This document shows, in pieces, positions 43,647-57,574 of a stretch of 64,000 nucleotides of DNA. Origin of the DNA: Desulfarculus sp. (GTDB lineage Bacteria > Desulfobacterota > Desulfarculia > Desulfarculales > Desulfarculaceae); assembly GCA_016218705.1 (NCBI GenBank), contig JACRDC010000058.1, forward strand, positions 1 through 64,000. Reading direction: 5' to 3'. Positions within the stretch are counted from its first letter, which is position 1. Each line of letters opens with the position of its first letter. Both the position numbers and the translations under genes were made by a program. Under the pieces are notes generated by a model, which had not been told where the DNA came from, did not search any database, and saw only the letters and a list, made by a program, of their open reading frames with translations.

Positions 43647-44729
43647 ATGACCCAATCACCAGCGGCCGGCCAGCCCGCGGCCGCCAGCCTGGAGCGCCTC
43701 AAGGCCCAGGTGCTGGAGGCCGGCCTGTGCGTGGCCTGCGGGGCCTGCGTGGGCCTGTGCCCCTATGTCATCTTTCACGACGGCCAGGTGGCCGCGCCGG
43801 ATGTCTGCGGCCTGGAGGACGGCCGCTGTATTGACGTCTGCCCCCAGGCACCGGTGCCCGACCCCAGCCAAAAGCGCGCCGGCCTGCTACAGGCCCTGGG
43901 CCGCCCCCAGGCCTTGCCCCTGGGGCCGCTGCGGGAGGTCTGGTGGGCGCGGGCCCTGTGCCCTGATCAGCAAGGCCGCGTGCAGTACGGCGGGGTGGTC
44001 TCCACCCTGGTGGCCCTGGCCCTGCAAGAGGGTCTCATCGGCGAGGCGGTGCTCACCCAGGCCGGCCCGGAGGGCGCGCCGGAAGGAGTGCGGGCGCGCA
44101 CCCGGCAGGAGGTGCTGGCCGCCGCCGGCTCCATATACGCCGCCGGCGGAGCGCTCTCGGCGCTCAACCAGGCCCTGGCCGAGGCGTCGGATCACGCCCT
44201 GGGCCTGGTGGGCCTGCCTTGCCAGGCCCTGGCCGCCGCCTCCTTGGCCGCCCACCCCCGCCATGCCCAGGGCGCGCGCCTGAAGCTGGTGATCGGCCTG
44301 TTCTGCACGCTGAACCTCTCGGCCCGGGGCCTGCGCGGGGTGCTCCAGGCCGCTGGCGTGCGGGGGCCGCTGACGCGCTCCGACTTCCCGCCGCCGCCGG
44401 CGGGGGTGCTGGAGGTGACGACGGCCCAGGGCACCACGGCCATCCCCCTGGAGGAGGTGCGGCCGGTGGTGCTGAAGGGCTGCGCCCTGTGCCCGGACCT
44501 CAGCGCCGAGCTGGCCGACATCTCGGTGGGCGCCGCCGAAGGGCGCCCCGGCTGGAACACCATATTGGTGCGTAGCGAGCAGGGGCAAAGGCTCCTGGAC
44601 CTGGCTCGGGCACAAGGCCTTTTGGAACTGACCGAGATGCCCGGCGAGTCCCGCCAGCATCTCTCCACCGCCGCCGCCAACAAGCGCGCACGGGCCGCCC
44701 AGGCCTGGAAGGAGCGGGCCGATGGCTGA
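43647..44729 (+). CDS. FrhB/FdhB-family (coenzyme F420 hydrogenase beta-like) iron-sulfur flavoprotein
   Basis: This 360-residue protein has an N-terminal ferredoxin motif CVACGACVGLCPY, a second Cys group (CIDVCPQAP), then the FrhB N- and C-terminal domains (YGGVVSTLVALAL, GLVGLPCQALAA, VIGLFCTLNLS, KGCALCPDLSAELADISVG). Family members use FAD and iron-sulfur clusters to pass electrons between ferredoxin and another carrier. Its end overlaps iorA by 8 bases, so it probably couples with the indolepyruvate oxidoreductase, taking its ferredoxin-level electrons. No sign of F420 biosynthesis is visible. Confidence 0.85.
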   Translation: MTQSPAAGQPAAASLERLKAQVLEAGLCVACGACVGLCPYVIFHDGQVAAPDVCGLEDGRCIDVCPQAPVPDPSQKRAGLLQALGRPQALPLGPLREVWWARALCPDQQGRVQYGGVVSTLVALALQEGLIGEAVLTQAGPEGAPEGVRARTRQEVLAAAGSIYAAGGALSALNQALAEASDHALGLVGLPCQALAAASLAAHPRHAQGARLKLVIGLFCTLNLSARGLRGVLQAAGVRGPLTRSDFPPPPAGVLEVTTAQGTTAIPLEEVRPVVLKGCALCPDLSAELADISVGAAEGRPGWNTILVRSEQGQRLLDLARAQGLLELTEMPGESRQHLSTAAANKRARAAQAWKERADG

Positions 44730-46644
44730 TCTGACCAAGCTCAAGGCCGGCGAGCTGGCCCTGTTGCAGGGCAACGAGGCCATCGCCCGGGGCGCCCTGG
44801 AGGCCGGCTTAAGCCTGGCCGCCGCCTATCCCGGCAACCCCAGCAGCGAGATTCTGGAGAGCCTGGCCGACAGCGCGGCAAGCGCCGGCATCTATGTGGA
44901 GTGGTCGGCAAACGAGAAGGTGGCCCTGGAGAGCGCCGCCGCCGCCAGCTTCACGGGGCTGAGGGCCATGGCCTCCATGAAGCAGAACGGCGTCAACGTG
45001 GCCCAGGACTTCATCTGCAACCTGACCATCAGCGGCACTCAGGGCGGCATCGTGCTGATAACCGCCGACGACCCATCGGGCATCAGCTCCACCAACGAGG
45101 AGGACGCCCGCTTCATCGCCCGCCTGGCCGACCTGCCGCTCTTGGAGCCCTCCACCCCGGCCGAGTGCCTGGCCATGGTCAAGTTCGCCTTTGACCTCAG
45201 CGAGGCCATCGGCAACCTGGTGGTGCTGCGCTCCCTGAGCCGGCTCAGCCACACCCGGGCGGGGGTGGTCCCCGGCCCCCTACCCACGGGGCGCCCCCAG
45301 CCTTTCTGGGATCCCAAGCAGATATGGAACACCGTGCCCGTGGTGCCCCGCCACCAGGCCATGAAGGACAAGCTGGCGAAGGCCGGCCAGATCATGGCCC
45401 AGAGCGGCTTCAACGCCTACAGCGGGCCGGAATCCCCCGACCTTTTGGTCATCGCCTCGGGCTCCTCGGCCCTCTACGCCGCCGAGGCGGCTGGCCTCCT
45501 GGGCGTGGACCGGCGCGTGGGCCTTTTGAAGCTGGGCTGCACTTGGCCCCTGGACCAGGCTCTGTTGCGCAAGCATTTGGCCGACAGCGAGAGAGTGCTC
45601 TTCGCCGAGGAGGTGGACCCCTTCATCGAGACCGAGGTCAAGGCCCTCTACGCCCAGCAGGCCGCCGAACTGGGAATCAAGCAGTTCTTCGGCAAGGCCT
45701 CGGGCCACCTGCCCCAGATCGGCGAGTTGACCCCTGGCCGCCTGGCCGGGGCCATGGCCGCCATCCTGGGGCTGACCTGGCAGCCGGCGGAGCCGCAGTA
45801 CCTCCAGGCCGCCCGCGAGACCATCAGCCGCCTGGTGCCTTTCCGCGAGTTCGGCTTCTGCCCGGGCTGCCCCCACCGGGCCAGCTATTGGGCCATCAAG
45901 CAGGCTCTTTCGCTGGACGGCCGCCAGGGCGTGGTCAGCGGCGACATCGGCTGCTACACCCTGGGGGTGCACTCCACGGGCTTCAGGCGGGTCAACTCGG
46001 TGCACTGCATGGGCTCGGGCCTGGGTATTTCGTCGGGCCTGGGCAAGCTTAAAAGCCTGGGCTTCCAGCAGCCGGTGGTGGGCGTGGTGGGCGACAGCAC
46101 CTTCTTCCACGCCGCCCTGCCGGGGCTGGTCAACGCCCGCTGGAACCAGGCCGACTACCTGCTCATCGTGCTGGACAACTCAGCCACGGCCATGACCGGC
46201 TTCCAGCCCCACCCCGGCACCGGCCAGACCGCCAGCGGCCAGCCCGGCACGGCGGTGGACGTGGAGCAGGTCTGCCGCGCCCTGGGCATTGACTGCCAGG
46301 TGGTGGACCCCTACGACCTGGCCGCGGCCCAGCAGGCGGTCTACCAGGCCGTGCAGGGAGAGCCGGGGCTCAAGGTGCTCATCTTCCGCCGGCTGTGTGC
46401 CCTGGTGCAGGGACGCCAGGGTGGCCACCCCTACCGCATGCGCGTGGACCAATCCCTGTGCCGGGGCGACGAGTGCGGCTGTCATCGTTTCTGTAGCCGC
46501 GCCTTCCGCTGCCCGGGGCTGAATTTCGACCAGGCCGCCGGCAGGGCGGTGATTGACGAGGTGGTGTGCGTGGGCTGCGGGGTCTGCGCCCAGATCTGCC
46601 CGGCCGGGGCCATCCGGGCCGAGGCCAAGGAGGCGGCGGCATGA
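44722..46644 (+). CDS. iorA: Indolepyruvate ferredoxin oxidoreductase alpha subunit
   Basis: This 640-residue subunit oxidatively decarboxylates aryl pyruvates to aryl-acetyl-CoA with reduction of ferredoxin. The N-terminal pyrimidine-binding region (GNEAIARGALEAGLSLAAAYPGNP), the TPP-binding SGDIGCYTLG and VVGDSTFFHA, and a C-terminal ferredoxin domain (CRGDECGCHRFC and CVGCGVCAQICPAG) are present. It permits amino-acid use or, reversed, aromatic amino-acid synthesis. It overlaps iorB as ATGA. Confidence 0.95.
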   Translation: MADLTKLKAGELALLQGNEAIARGALEAGLSLAAAYPGNPSSEILESLADSAASAGIYVEWSANEKVALESAAAASFTGLRAMASMKQNGVNVAQDFICNLTISGTQGGIVLITADDPSGISSTNEEDARFIARLADLPLLEPSTPAECLAMVKFAFDLSEAIGNLVVLRSLSRLSHTRAGVVPGPLPTGRPQPFWDPKQIWNTVPVVPRHQAMKDKLAKAGQIMAQSGFNAYSGPESPDLLVIASGSSALYAAEAAGLLGVDRRVGLLKLGCTWPLDQALLRKHLADSERVLFAEEVDPFIETEVKALYAQQAAELGIKQFFGKASGHLPQIGELTPGRLAGAMAAILGLTWQPAEPQYLQAARETISRLVPFREFGFCPGCPHRASYWAIKQALSLDGRQGVVSGDIGCYTLGVHSTGFRRVNSVHCMGSGLGISSGLGKLKSLGFQQPVVGVVGDSTFFHAALPGLVNARWNQADYLLIVLDNSATAMTGFQPHPGTGQTASGQPGTAVDVEQVCRALGIDCQVVDPYDLAAAQQAVYQAVQGEPGLKVLIFRRLCALVQGRQGGHPYRMRVDQSLCRGDECGCHRFCSRAFRCPGLNFDQAAGRAVIDEVVCVGCGVCAQICPAGAIRAEAKEAAA

Positions 46645-47270
46645 AGGCGCTGGCTAACGATCCCCTGGACATCGTCATCACCGGCGTGGGTGGCCAGGGC
46701 AACGTGCTGGCCAGCCAGGTGCTGGGACGGGCGCTTTTGCAGGCCGGCTACACCGTCACCGTGGGCGAGACCTACGGGCTATCCCAGCGGGGCGGGGCGG
46801 TGATGAGCCAGGTGCGCGTCACCGCCGGCGCCGCCCTGGGGCCCCTGATCCCCGAGAACCGGGCCACGGCCATCGTCAGCCTGGAGCCCCTGGAGGCCCT
46901 GCGCGTGCTGGGCCAGTACGGCCACCCCGGGGTGGTGGTCTTGACCAACGACCGGCCGCTGATGCCGCTGAACGTGCTCACCGGCCAGGACAAGTACCCC
47001 GCGCCGGGCGAGCTCAAGGCGGCCCTGGAGGGGCTGTGCGCCAAGCTGTACTGGCTGCCGGCCACCGAGGCGGCCTTCGCCCTGGGGGCGCCCATCCTGG
47101 CCAACGTAATCATGCTGGGTGCCCTCTTGGGCAGCGGGCTGGTGCCCCTGGGACCGGAGGAGCTGGAGGCCGAGCTGGGGGGGCTGTTCCCCGAAAAAAA
47201 GATGGCCGCCAACCGTCAGGCCCTGGCCAGGGGCATGGAACTGGCGGCTCAGTGCCTGGGCACCCAATAA
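46641..47270 (+). CDS. iorB: Indolepyruvate ferredoxin oxidoreductase beta subunit
   Basis: This 209-residue subunit has the gamma-type fold of 2-oxoacid oxidoreductases: ITGVGGQGNVLASQVLGRAL, GETYGLSQRGGAVMSQVR and LEPLEALR. It partners IorA. The start overlaps the iorA stop (ATGA). Its last codons and stop (ACCCAATAA) coincide with the beginning of a dispersed repeat also found after the chemoreceptor gene at 57592. Confidence 0.95.
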   Translation: MKALANDPLDIVITGVGGQGNVLASQVLGRALLQAGYTVTVGETYGLSQRGGAVMSQVRVTAGAALGPLIPENRATAIVSLEPLEALRVLGQYGHPGVVVLTNDRPLMPLNVLTGQDKYPAPGELKAALEGLCAKLYWLPATEAAFALGAPILANVIMLGALLGSGLVPLGPEELEAELGGLFPEKKMAANRQALARGMELAAQCLGTQ

Positions 47271-47662: not shown

Positions 47663-47875
47663 CTAGTTGACGACGATGATGACCTGGTCGGCCTCCACGG
47701 TCTGACCCGCGCTGACCTTGATCTCGGCCACGGTGCCATCGCCCTCGGCCAGGATGGGCATCTCCATCTTCATGGCCTCCAGCACGGCCACCTCGTCGTC
47801 CTCGGAGATGGTGTCGCCCACGTTAACCGTGACTTTGATGACCTTGCCACCCATGGGTGCCTTGATTTCCGCCAA
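47663..47875 (-). CDS. Stand-alone biotinyl/lipoyl carrier domain protein
   Basis: This 70-residue protein is a complete biotinyl-lipoyl swinging domain with EAMKMEM and modified Lys36, beginning AEIKAPMGGKVIKV. The EAMKM motif indicates biotin. It starts with TTG at 47875, eight bases after GAGGAGG; the first ATG in the frame is too far into the domain. It lies 154 bases after the synthase-like gene on the same strand. Carboxylation or transcarboxylation would need separate carboxylase subunits, which are not in the window. Confidence 0.9.
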   Translation of the reverse strand: MAEIKAPMGGKVIKVTVNVGDTISEDDEVAVLEAMKMEMPILAEGDGTVAEIKVSAGQTVEADQVIIVVN

Positions 47876-48029
47876 CTTAGTCCTCCTCGTCCAGCCGCGG
47901 GCAAGCGACGGCCTGCCTGGGTTTATGTTCAGTAAACGCCTGCCAACAAAGGTCAAGGAAGGATAGAACGCCCGTGGCCTGCCGTCAAGTCCAAAGCTCC
48001 CGGACCGCGCCGGGCCCCGGGCGCCTCCG

Positions 48030-49862
48030 TTACTCCTCCTCGGAGGGCTCGTCCTCCATCTTGGCCAGCTCCTCGAAGCGGATGTCGGCGCCCAAGACGC
48101 CCACGATCTGCTCGTTGTCGTCGCGCACCGGCCCGCTCACGGTCATGCACAGGGCGTTGGTGATCTTGCTGGTATAGAACTCGCTCACATGCACCTTGCC
48201 GTCCTTGATGGGCTCCACGAACCAGTCGCGGTCGCTGAAGTCCACGTCCAGGCTGGCCCGCCCGTACTTGGCCTTGTCGGTGATGTGGGTGATGTTGCGG
48301 GTCACCTTGTAGCCGTTGGTGTTGACCACGTAGAGGAACTGGATGAAGGGGTTGGCCTCCAGGAACTTTTCCAAGACCGGCTCCATGACCGCCGGGGCCA
48401 TGGTCTGGAACTCGGGGCGGCTCAACAGGTCGGTGCACTGGTTGATGGCGATCTTGTGGGCCCGTTCCTTCAACTTGTCGAACTCGCTCAAGAAGAGTTG
48501 CGGCAGTTGCTTGCGGGCCACCACCTCCAGCTCGGCGCTGCCGATGGTGGTGAGCCGGCCCTCGTCGTACTGGTCCTTGACCCACTTGTATATCTTCTGC
48601 ACGCCGGGGTGGCGCTTGTCCACGCGCTTGTCGTCGGTGAGCTTGAGCCGCTGGTTGATCCAGTGGGCCACGCCGGCGGCCCCGGACTTGTCGGTGATGG
48701 CGATGGTGTAGGGCCGGCCCAGGATCAGCTCCGTGTCGAAGATGTTGTATATCTCCGGGTTCTTTATCAGCCCGTCGGCGTGGATGCCCGCCGAGGTGGA
48801 GTTGAAGTCGCGCCCCACCAGGGGGGTGGCCGGCGGGATGCGGTGGCCGATGTCATGCTCGAAGTACTCGGCGATCTCGGTGATGACCCGGGTGTCCATG
48901 CCGTCGTCCTTGCCCTTGAGCTGGATGTACTCCAGCACCAGGGCCTCCACCGGGGTGTTGCCGGTGCGCTCGCCAAAACCCAACAGCGAGCCGTTGATGG
49001 CCCCGCAGCCGTAGAGCCAGGCCGTGGTGCCGTTGATGAGGGCCTTGTAGAAGTCGTTGTGCCCGTGCCATTCCAAGAGCTTGCCCGGGCAGCCCGCGTC
49101 CTCGATCATGGCGCGCACCAGCTTGGCCACCGAGCGGGGCAGGGCCGCCCCCAGGTAGGGCACGCCGTAGCCCATGGTGTCGCACAGGCGCATCTTGATG
49201 GGCACCCCCGATTCCTCGCGCAGCCTGGTCAGCTCCAGGGCGAAGGGCACCACGAAGCCGTAGATATCGGCCCGAGTCAGGTCCTCCAGGTGGCAGCGGG
49301 GCACGATGCCCAAATCCAGGGCGTCCTTGACCACCCCCAGGTAGCGGTCCAGGCAGGTCTTGCGGTCCAGGCCCAGCTTTAGGAAGATGTGATAGTCGCT
49401 CACCGAGGTGAGGATGCCCGTCTCCTTTAGCCCCATCTGCTTGACCACCCGAAGCTCGTCCTTGCTGGCCCGCACCCAGCCCGTGATCTCGGGGAAGCGG
49501 TGCCCCAGGGCCTGGCAGCGCTCCACGGCCTCGCGGTCGCGGGCGGCATAGAGGAAGAACTCGCACTGGCGGATGATGCCCTTGGGCCCGGACAGACGAT
49601 GCATCATGTCGTATAGATTGACGATCTGCTCGACTTTATAGGGCGGGCGCGCCTGCTGGCCGTCGCGGAAGGTGGTGTCGGTGATAAGCATCTCATCCGG
49701 CGGGTCCAGGGGTTGAATCTTGTGGTCGAAGTCTATGCGGCACACCTCGCTGTAGGGGAACACGTCCCTCAAGAGCTGGGGGTCGGCGGTCTCCTCCAGG
49801 CTGGTGAACTGGGCCTGATGGATGTGGTCCAATAATCTTCTGCGGGAATTCCACTTGGCCAT
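48030..49862 (-). CDS. HMGL-like synthase (citramalate/(Re)-citrate synthase-like) with C-terminal Cache domain
   Basis: This 610-residue protein has an HMGL/DRE-TIM barrel of the isopropylmalate/homocitrate synthase type: ITDTTFRDGQQARPP for metal and substrate binding, CHLEDLTRADIYGFV, EWHGHNDFYKALIN and FGERTGNTPVEALV. Residues about 510-600 form a Cache-like domain (FIQFLYVVNTNGYKV, FSDRDWFVEPI, SEFYTSKIT, VSGPVRDDNEQIVGVLGADI). There is no signal or membrane helix, so the Cache domain is cytosolic. Acetyl-CoA condensation with a keto acid is expected. (Re)-citrate synthase of anaerobes is a leading candidate, homocitrate or citramalate synthase are others. Biotin-dependent carboxyltransferase is less likely by motif. 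The start at 49862 is by content. Confidence 0.8.
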   Translation of the reverse strand: MAKWNSRRRLLDHIHQAQFTSLEETADPQLLRDVFPYSEVCRIDFDHKIQPLDPPDEMLITDTTFRDGQQARPPYKVEQIVNLYDMMHRLSGPKGIIRQCEFFLYAARDREAVERCQALGHRFPEITGWVRASKDELRVVKQMGLKETGILTSVSDYHIFLKLGLDRKTCLDRYLGVVKDALDLGIVPRCHLEDLTRADIYGFVVPFALELTRLREESGVPIKMRLCDTMGYGVPYLGAALPRSVAKLVRAMIEDAGCPGKLLEWHGHNDFYKALINGTTAWLYGCGAINGSLLGFGERTGNTPVEALVLEYIQLKGKDDGMDTRVITEIAEYFEHDIGHRIPPATPLVGRDFNSTSAGIHADGLIKNPEIYNIFDTELILGRPYTIAITDKSGAAGVAHWINQRLKLTDDKRVDKRHPGVQKIYKWVKDQYDEGRLTTIGSAELEVVARKQLPQLFLSEFDKLKERAHKIAINQCTDLLSRPEFQTMAPAVMEPVLEKFLEANPFIQFLYVVNTNGYKVTRNITHITDKAKYGRASLDVDFSDRDWFVEPIKDGKVHVSEFYTSKITNALCMTVSGPVRDDNEQIVGVLGADIRFEELAKMEDEPSEEE

Positions 49863-55407: not shown

Positions 55408-55498
55408 ACCCCGAGCGCGCCGGTGTCAATGGCGATTGCCAGTTGAGCACATCGGGGCCGCTTTTGTCCAATCGTGTCTCATGATGGGGGTGACTATA

Positions 55499-57574
55499 AT
55501 GGCTAGCTTGCGCATCGGCATCGGCGGCAAGATATTGGCCGCCGTCCTGGCCTCGCTTCTGCCCCTGTTGGTGGTGATCCTGGTGCTGGAAAACCGGGCA
55601 CAGGAAACCATAACCCAGGGCGTGGAACAGGACCAGGACCACATCGCCCAGCAACTCATGGTCAACTGCCAGGCCCAGCAGGAGATACTCGAGGTCAAGC
55701 TGGCCGACGACCTGCGGGTGGCCGAGTATCTGCTCAACCAGCTCAGTGGCGGCTGGGGGCTCAACCTCAACAAGATGGAAGCCGTGCAGTGGAAGGCGGT
55801 GAACCAGGTCAGCAAGGAGATCAAGGACCTGAGCCTACCCGGCTTCATGGCCGGCCCGGCCACCAATCTCAGCCAGGACACCTCCCTGGTGGACAAGGTC
55901 AAGTCCCTGGTGGGCGGCACCTGCACCATCTTCCAGCGCATGAACCCCGAGGGCGACCTCTTGCGCATCTCCACCAATGTCATGACCAAGGAGGGTGCCC
56001 GCGCCCTGGGCACCTTCATCCCCCGCGACTCCCCGGTGGCCCAGGCCGTGGTCAGGGGCGAGACCTTCCATGGCCGGGCCTTCGTGGTCAATGGTTGGTA
56101 CATCACCGCCTACAAGCCCCTCAAGGACGGCCAGGACCAGGTGATCGGCGCGCTGTACGTGGGCGTGCCCGAGCAGTCGGCCAAGGGCCTGTTGGAGGCC
56201 ATCCGCAAGGTCAAGGTGGGGCAGAGTGGCTTTGCCTTTGTCTTCAACGGCGATGGCGAGATGATCGTGCACCCCAGTCTGGCCGGCCAGAAGGTGCTGG
56301 GGGTCAAGGATGCATCGGGCCGGACGGTCTACGCCGAGATGGCCCAGGCCCTTAAGGGCGGCGCCCAGGACGGCCAGGTGCGGGCGGTCCGCCTGGACGG
56401 CGGCCAGGCCGGGCGCCTGGCCATCAAGTACACCACCTTCTCGTCCTGGCAGTGGATCATCGCCGTGGCGGCCCAGGAGGACGAGCTCTACGCCGGCGTG
56501 CGCCAGATGACCCTGTGGGGCTGGGGCATCCTGGTGGCGGCGGCCCTGGTGCTCTTGCCCGTGGGCTGGCTTTTCGCCCGCTCCCTGAGCCGGCCCTTGA
56601 CCAGGGCCGTCGCCTCCTTGAGCCAGGAGGCCGTGGCGGTGCAGGACTCGGCCGCCGGCCTGAGCCAGGCCTCCCAGAACCTGGCCGTGGGCTCCAGCCA
56701 GCAGGCCTCGTCCCTGGAGGAGACCAGCTCCTCCCTGGAGGAGATGGCCTCCATGACCACGGGCACCGCCGACAACGCAGCCCAGGCCGACCAGGAGATG
56801 CGCGCGGCCCAGGCCAAGGTGGACAAGGCCGGCCAGGGCATGGAGGCCGTGGCCGCCTCCATGACCCAGATGGCCGGGGCCGGAGAGCAGATCAGCAAGA
56901 TCATCAAGACCATTGACGAGATCGCCTTCCAGACCAACCTGCTGGCGCTGAACGCCGCCGTGGAGGCGGCCCGGGCGGGCGAGGCGGGCGCCGGTTTCGC
57001 CGTGGTGGCCGGCGAGGTGCGCAACCTGGCCATGCGCGCCGCCGAGGCGGCCAAGAACACCCAGGTGCTCATCGAGGAGACGGTCAGGAGCATCAACCAG
57101 GGCGCCCGCCAGGTGGCCGACACCAAGGCCGAGTTCCAGGAGGTGGCCAGGTCGGCGGGCAAGGTGGCCAGCCTCATCTCCGAGATTTCGGCGGCCAGCC
57201 GGGAGCAGGCCCAGGGCATCACCCAGATCACCCAGGCCCTGACCCACATGGACCAGGTGGTGCAGGCCAACGCCGGCCACTCCGAGGAGACCGCCGCCGC
57301 CGCCAGCGAGATGGACGGCCAGGCCCGCCGCCTGGCCCAGGTGGTGGAGGAACTGGCCCGCCTGGCCGGCGGGCGCGCCCAGGTGCCCCAGGCCGCCCTG
57401 GAGGAACCAGTCCCCGCCCCGGCGGCCCGCAAGAGCCTGCCCGGTCCGGCCAGGCCCGGGGCGCCTGCCAAGGCCAAGCCGGCAGCCAAGACCCCGGCGC
57501 CGGACAAGGGCGGCCAACCCCGGCCCGAGCAGATCATCCCCCTGGACGACGAAAAGGACTTCAAGGATTTCTAG
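55499..57574 (+). CDS. Methyl-accepting chemotaxis protein with periplasmic Cache sensor
   Basis: This 691-residue receptor has a transmembrane helix near residues 12-32, a periplasmic Cache_3-Cache_2-type sensor ([41 protein letters not shown]), a second helix near 345-370, and a signalling domain with the hairpin tip [21 protein letters not shown] Pro/Ala/Lys-rich tail of about 60 residues follows, ending in DDEKDFKDF and with no CheR pentapeptide. The start at 55499 follows GGGGGTGA; 21 further in-frame codons upstream lack support. Its ligand is unknown. CheD (26426-26914) could modify it. Confidence 0.93.

Follow-up and report, generated by a model that had tools for sequence, protein, structure and literature searches.

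PMC12016533 cites literature in which (Re)-citrate synthases are reported from the Thermodesulfobacteriota (Syntrophus aciditrophicus, Desulfovibrio vulgaris), and places the (Re)-citrate synthases of S. aciditrophicus and C. kluyveri in one clade. Enzymes of this type were derived in anaerobes from the barrel of homocitrate and isopropylmalate synthases, and convert acetyl-CoA and oxaloacetate into citrate, at the start of the oxidative branch that leads to 2-oxoglutarate and glutamate. Regulation of the Si-type citrate synthase is not transferable to the Re-type, as the folds are unrelated. Among Cache domains, 78% are confidently predicted to be extracellular, and the small families YkuI_C and Diacid_rec are principally intracellular (PMC4822843). 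Re-citrate synthase itself, C-terminal regulatory domains on its kind of barrel, and a few intracellular Cache families are already known.

The window analyzed here is the whole stretch of 64,000 nucleotides taken from Desulfarculus sp. (assembly GCA_016218705.1, contig JACRDC010000058.1, positions 1 to 64,000). An earlier note, made from the sequence alone, had placed at 48030-49862 a metabolic synthase fused to a cytosolic Cache sensor domain, and translation returned a 610 aa product at that place on the minus strand, with an ATG at 49862 and a stop at 48030-48032. The features of this gene and its neighbor are the following.

47663-47956, minus strand: stand-alone biotin carrier protein (Pfam Biotin_lipoyl, E=2.8e-20)
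48030-49862, minus strand: (Re)-citrate synthase-like protein with a C-terminal Cache domain, 610 aa (ORF and translation)
48867-49685, minus strand: HMGL-like TIM barrel, residues 60-332 (Pfam PF00682, E=2.2e-26)
48633-48794, minus strand: post-barrel linker, residues 357-410, weak HCS_D2 match (Pfam PF22617, E=1.2e-4, below the cut-off)
48423-48485, minus strand: long helix, residues 460-480, start of the Cache module (AlphaFold secondary structure; end points of Cache-less orthologues)
48051-48407, minus strand: Cache (PDC) domain, residues 486-604 (Pfam PF22673, fold match, conservation)

The isopropylmalate/homocitrate-synthase signature attributed to the HMGL barrel is present in both its motifs, HGHNDF (residues 266-271) and GERTGN (297-302), which are invariant or nearly so among 52 aligned orthologues. 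Across 134 homologues, 98 fused to a Cache and 36 Cache-less, the residues R66-D67, H266-x-H268, N302 (metal ligands included) and R189 are invariant. At the position of the linker, the LeuA and CimA encoded in this genome show a strong HCS_D2 domain followed by LeuA_dimer. No transmembrane segment was detected in the synthase, as had been stated before, its top 19-residue Kyte-Doolittle mean being 0.86, while the membrane chemoreceptor of the same window reaches 3.12. The latter is encoded at 55436-57574 (+) and combines a Cache_3-Cache_2 sensor with an MCP signalling domain.

The stand-alone biotin carrier described as adjoining the synthase is real, and a TTG at ~47875 would give a 70-aa form of it. 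It was rejected as a part of the system, as it lies directly downstream only in loci of the same family (L006, L007, L108-L110); in a few other loci biotin carriers are weak and farther away. Because contig C25 (L179) has a second carrier, 68% identical, upstream of sucCD and of a carboxylase subunit (PYC_OADA), that of the window is not simply assignable to the C25 carboxylase. Upstream, at 44722-47270 (+), two ORFs read by eye from the sequence resemble an indolepyruvate:ferredoxin oxidoreductase, a thiamine-type alpha subunit with a ferredoxin motif being followed by the beta subunit.

The Cache domain had been proposed from the order of its motifs, and Pfam, profile searches of PDB sequences and structure prediction all bear it out. 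Residues 494-600 match MCP-like_PDC_1 (PF22673) with 59.7 bits against a cut-off of 27 (E=4.6e-16), and the dCache_1 match (E=3e-11) falls slightly below its cut-off. A profile built from the Cache segments of 63 orthologues retrieved Tlp3 (1e-11), KinD (1e-10), PctA, PctB and other Cache receptors from the PDB sequences, and no LeuA regulatory fold was matched in that search. AlphaFold gave a pLDDT of 86 for residues 441-610 (89.5 for the whole protein), and Foldseek with the Cache part returned KinD first (E=6.8e-9), with Tlp3 among the best matches, at a probability of 1.00. The long N-terminal helix and PAS-like sheet of the superfamily are both present, the helix in the AlphaFold model (460-480) and the fold through the Foldseek matches to KinD and Tlp3. 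The fold check proposed for the C-terminal part thus gave the KinD/Tlp3 Cache fold. The domain assignment stands, with the module slightly larger than the last 100 residues given before, as it begins with the long helix from ~460. The typical, though not obligatory, Cache setting is extracytoplasmic, between membrane helices; the synthase lacks any membrane segment.

The identity of the enzyme was approached through the genomes that encode it. The synthase is one of four HMGL proteins of the source genome, the others being a carboxylase subunit and the LeuA_dimer-bearing LeuA and CimA. Si-citrate synthase was not found in this genome, which is 99% complete. Within a sample of 197 genomes of the phylum (completeness of at least 90%), 97 have an orthologue of the synthase and 100 have a Si-citrate synthase, with both in 15 and neither in 15 (Fisher test; p=4e-24, a value that counts the genomes as independent though they are related to one another). 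In seven of the 15 genomes with neither enzyme there is a weak match whose size and place are those expected of ATP-citrate lyase. Seven families include Re-only and Si-only genomes alike, among them the source family, in which the six members with the fusion all lack a Si enzyme and the single member without the fusion has one. No match to Si-citrate synthase was found in 17 of the 22 genomes reached via loci of several phyla, including that of a D. desulfuricans isolate with the fusion. The fusion is likewise present in Syntrophaceae loci, these and the isolate being relatives at the family level of the organisms with characterised (Re)-citrate synthases, not those characterised sequences.

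The absence of Si-citrate synthase alone cannot separate a (Re)-citrate synthase from a homocitrate synthase. R189 aligns with the Arg of the archaeal homocitrate synthase from Sulfolobus, a residue that in this family holds the distal carboxylate of the acceptor, whereas the position is occupied by Glu in isopropylmalate and methylthioalkylmalate synthases and by Asn in citramalate synthase. The invariance of R189 and this alignment therefore indicate a dicarboxylic 2-oxo acid as acceptor. The same residue would also suit 2-oxoglutarate, and a NifV-like homocitrate synthase for nitrogenase, carrying a sensor domain, has further points in its favor: homocitrate synthases are the best fold matches (Foldseek with the whole protein returned one first), and nifH is present in the genome, where no further NifV candidate was found. 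This reading is nevertheless highly improbable given that the gene is not associated with nifH (present in 27 of the 97 genomes having the gene and in 21 of the 100 lacking it; p=0.32), that it nearly excludes Si-citrate synthase, and that its score with the NifV equivalog (140.9 bits) lies far below the cut-off of 462.9. The nifH of the source genome, at C18:37725-38543, scores over the curated cut-off, and no NifV was found among the HMGL proteins of the genome.

An isopropylmalate or citramalate synthase with a swapped regulatory domain would share the general homology of the barrel; we give this reading almost no weight, as the genome has a dedicated LeuA and CimA, the residue at position 189 differs from that of those enzymes, no LeuA_dimer was matched in the synthase, and its scores with the LeuA and CimA equivalogs are far below the cut-offs. 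The synthase is thus very probably a (Re)-citrate synthase, a suggestion made with a "perhaps" in the earlier note and strengthened here by the replacement of Si-citrate synthase, by R189 and by the separate LeuA and CimA. With the Cache profile and fold, the absence of a membrane segment and that same replacement, the claim that a Cache sits in the cytosol on an enzyme of carbon entry is supported.

The predicted pocket of the Cache, R545-x-W547-F548...Y563-x-S565...D593, resembles that of KinD and is 84-100% conserved. Among the Caches of 76 fused orthologues, conservation reaches 93% for R545, 100% for W547, 99% for F548, 84% for Y563 and 100% for S565, and in the same set T568 (95%), L571 (100%), T574 (99%) and D593 (100%) are also conserved. 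R545 aligns with R131 of KinD, which was mutated in the R131A crystals; the Y-x-S-[KR]-x-T-[GN] of the synthase Caches is nearly the same as the Y-x-S-R-x-T-G of KinD. In the KinD pocket, two Arg and a Ser contact the carboxylate of pyruvate, and Ser and Tyr lie by the keto group, as described in the BtsS paper (PMC10653868).

In the alignment, the Y-x-D of the amino-acid receptors PctA and Tlp3 corresponds to Y-x-S in the synthase family, the Ser being invariant. The Asp of the receptor motif helps to hold the amino group of the ligand; with S565 at the position, the Cache departs from the dCache amino-acid receptors. An amino-acid sensor of the PctA/Tlp3 type, responding for example to the end product glutamate, would make metabolic sense as feedback, and it fits the appearance of PctA, PctB and Tlp3 among the best PDB matches as well as the R-x-W-[YF] and final Asp, which are mostly kept. 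The replacement of Y-x-D and the presence of Y-x-S in pyruvate-binding KinD argue against it, and we regard it as improbable. The KinD-like Y-x-S and R545, as opposed to the Y-x-D of the amino-acid receptors, therefore favor a small carboxylate. Pyruvate or a close 2-oxo acid is the candidate that the pocket residues favor, albeit tentatively, and because Caches with identical pockets can prefer different carboxylates (PMC5062169) this reading of the ligand serves as a lead only.

A profile of the (Re)-citrate synthase Caches separated one group of other proteins, scoring 81-103 bits, from the membrane-receptor Caches of the phylum, which reached at most 33. In five members of this group (L147, L182, L183, L184 and L191) the Cache is C-terminal, behind a signalling helix bundle of the MCP type. 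One of them is encoded in the source genome.

Contig C42, L147:418-1692, plus strand: soluble MCP with a C-terminal Cache, 424 aa (MCPsignal by Pfam, without membrane segment)

L182-L184 also lack membrane segments, their signalling bundle having been read by eye, and L191 has N-terminal membrane helices, yet its Cache lies behind the signalling region. A similar protein from the same genus (L188), cut by the end of its contig, was left outside the five. The Caches of these chemoreceptor-like proteins have the R-x-W-F, the Y-x-S and the final Asp of the synthase type, and they are cytosolic because the signalling domains are. A specialised intracellular Cache subfamily appears more likely than a one-off capture, judging from the sequences. 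It is conceivable, though doubtful, that this cytosolic subfamily is common to (Re)-citrate synthase and chemoreceptors, each sensing one shared carboxylate inside the cell, so that one pool would set carbon entry into the citric-acid cycle together with chemosensory output.

The search for the same fusion across Desulfobacterota that had been called for showed it to be the standard form, as 94 of the 97 orthologues, from nearly half of the sampled genomes, carry the Cache; two complete orthologues lack it and one is a fragment. Of the best 80 loci in the genome collection, 77 continue into the Cache, one ends with its contig and two, from Bacillota, stop before it. At 51-63% identity, the orthologues sampled from Bacillota stop short of the Cache, and in the phylum of one Bacillota locus 29 of 250 genomes gave a match, with a Cache in none of the 29. 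On the other hand, the fusion is also common in Nitrospirota, Spirochaetota and other phyla: it is present in nearly all of 23 genomes in the phylum of a Nitrospirae locus, and in 10 of 22 matching genomes in that of a Spirochaetes locus, two of these 10 having an additional Cache-less copy. The fused and Cache-less synthases of these two genomes (L113/L131 in G470, L111/L132 in G493) form natural pairs for a comparison of regulation. In the plasmid collection no relative covering the Cache was found, the best matches being a 38-39% identical, Cache-less Deinococcus "pyruvate carboxyltransferase" and NifV/LeuA-like proteins.

Cache-less forms stop at ~457, just ahead of the long helix with which the Cache module starts. 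Distances between barrels correlate with those between Caches (r=0.73), which fits a long co-inheritance of the two. In a tree of 83 barrels, whose backbone is unresolved, the presence of the Cache required 5 gains or losses, compared with 24.7 for shuffled labels. When only branches with good support are counted, a single change (1) is unavoidable, which would leave room for one early gain and subsequent losses. The Cache, with a mean identity of 45%, evolves faster than the barrel (64%) and is absent from the Bacillota enzymes, so that catalysis does not depend on it. Both facts would also suit a Cache that has lost ligand binding and acts in the same enzyme as a mere module for dimerisation or stability, a frequent use of PAS/Cache domains according to PMC8694187. 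We consider such a role rather unlikely, since the residues that have remained fixed are those of the pocket and are common to the Caches of the sensing chemoreceptors.

As the explanation of the whole, we regard as fairly probable a (Re)-citrate synthase of the organism under allosteric control by a cytosolic, carboxylate-binding Cache. Evidence is at hand for the Cache fold, its cytosolic location, the conservation of the pocket, the identity of the enzyme as a synthase that uses a dicarboxylic 2-oxo acid, and the replacement of Si-citrate synthase. The Cache occupies the slot held in LeuA and CimA by LeuA_dimer, which serves amino-acid feedback, and its presence in place of the LeuA_dimer of the paralogues suggests allosteric control. 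It would most likely bind a small carboxylate of central metabolism in the cytosol, with R545, W547, Y563 and S565 as putative anchors, and the 460-480 helix would relay its occupancy to the catalytic part, turning activity up or down. Ligand binding, allosteric control and its sign, and the identity of the ligand, are thus what we infer.

The fusion suggests that a metabolite may switch the entry of carbon into the citric-acid cycle. Should the Cache prove to be an allosteric site, the commonest extracellular sensor fold of prokaryotes would have been reused to regulate a central enzyme, across sulfate reducers, syntrophs and their relatives, and the cytosolic chemoreceptors with a matching Cache would provide a second, independent read-out of the same ligand. 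The earlier note would have taken as a refutation a universal fusion in a characterised enzyme of known regulation: the fusion is near-universal among the Re-type enzymes of the phylum and the family is characterised, but among papers outside subscription no article was found pairing (Re)-citrate synthase with a Cache, or describing a Cache that regulates a metabolic synthase. The domain match itself is to be expected in domain databases; as an intracellular regulatory module on a known enzyme, the Cache is apparently undescribed.

Compared with known systems, the synthase shares with the (Re)-citrate synthases of S. aciditrophicus and C. kluyveri the barrel family and the replacement of Si-citrate synthase. 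The C. kluyveri enzyme, presumably of ~450 aa and without a Cache, would be like the Bacillota orthologues found here, and that of S. aciditrophicus, which we take to be near 72 kDa, would fit the fusion; the Syntrophaceae relatives in our locus set have an architecture identical to that of the synthase (~630 aa). The best fold match to the Cache, KinD (a histidine kinase of B. subtilis; 4jgo/4jgp, pyruvate-bound), serves a membrane kinase as its extracytoplasmic sensor, whereas the synthase has a single cytosolic Cache on an enzyme. The dCache_1 receptors PctA, PctB and Tlp3 belong to the same superfamily, with an aligned R-x-W-[YF] (PctA) and final Asp, but the synthase Cache is single, has no membrane anchor and carries Y-x-S for Y-x-D. 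YkuI, a cytosolic Cache, gives a weak profile match (5e-4) to the synthase Cache; the chemoreceptor L147 matches YkuI_C (1e-6), whereas the synthase has no YkuI_C match in Pfam. YkuI_C and Diacid_rec are joined to other outputs (EAL in YkuI) and not to a metabolic synthase. Finally, the LeuA_dimer of LeuA and CimA and the RAM domain of the Sulfolobus homocitrate synthase (6ktq being the dRAM form) are also C-terminal additions to the same kind of barrel, but the fold of the Cache is unrelated to theirs and its ligand need not be the amino acid of the pathway.
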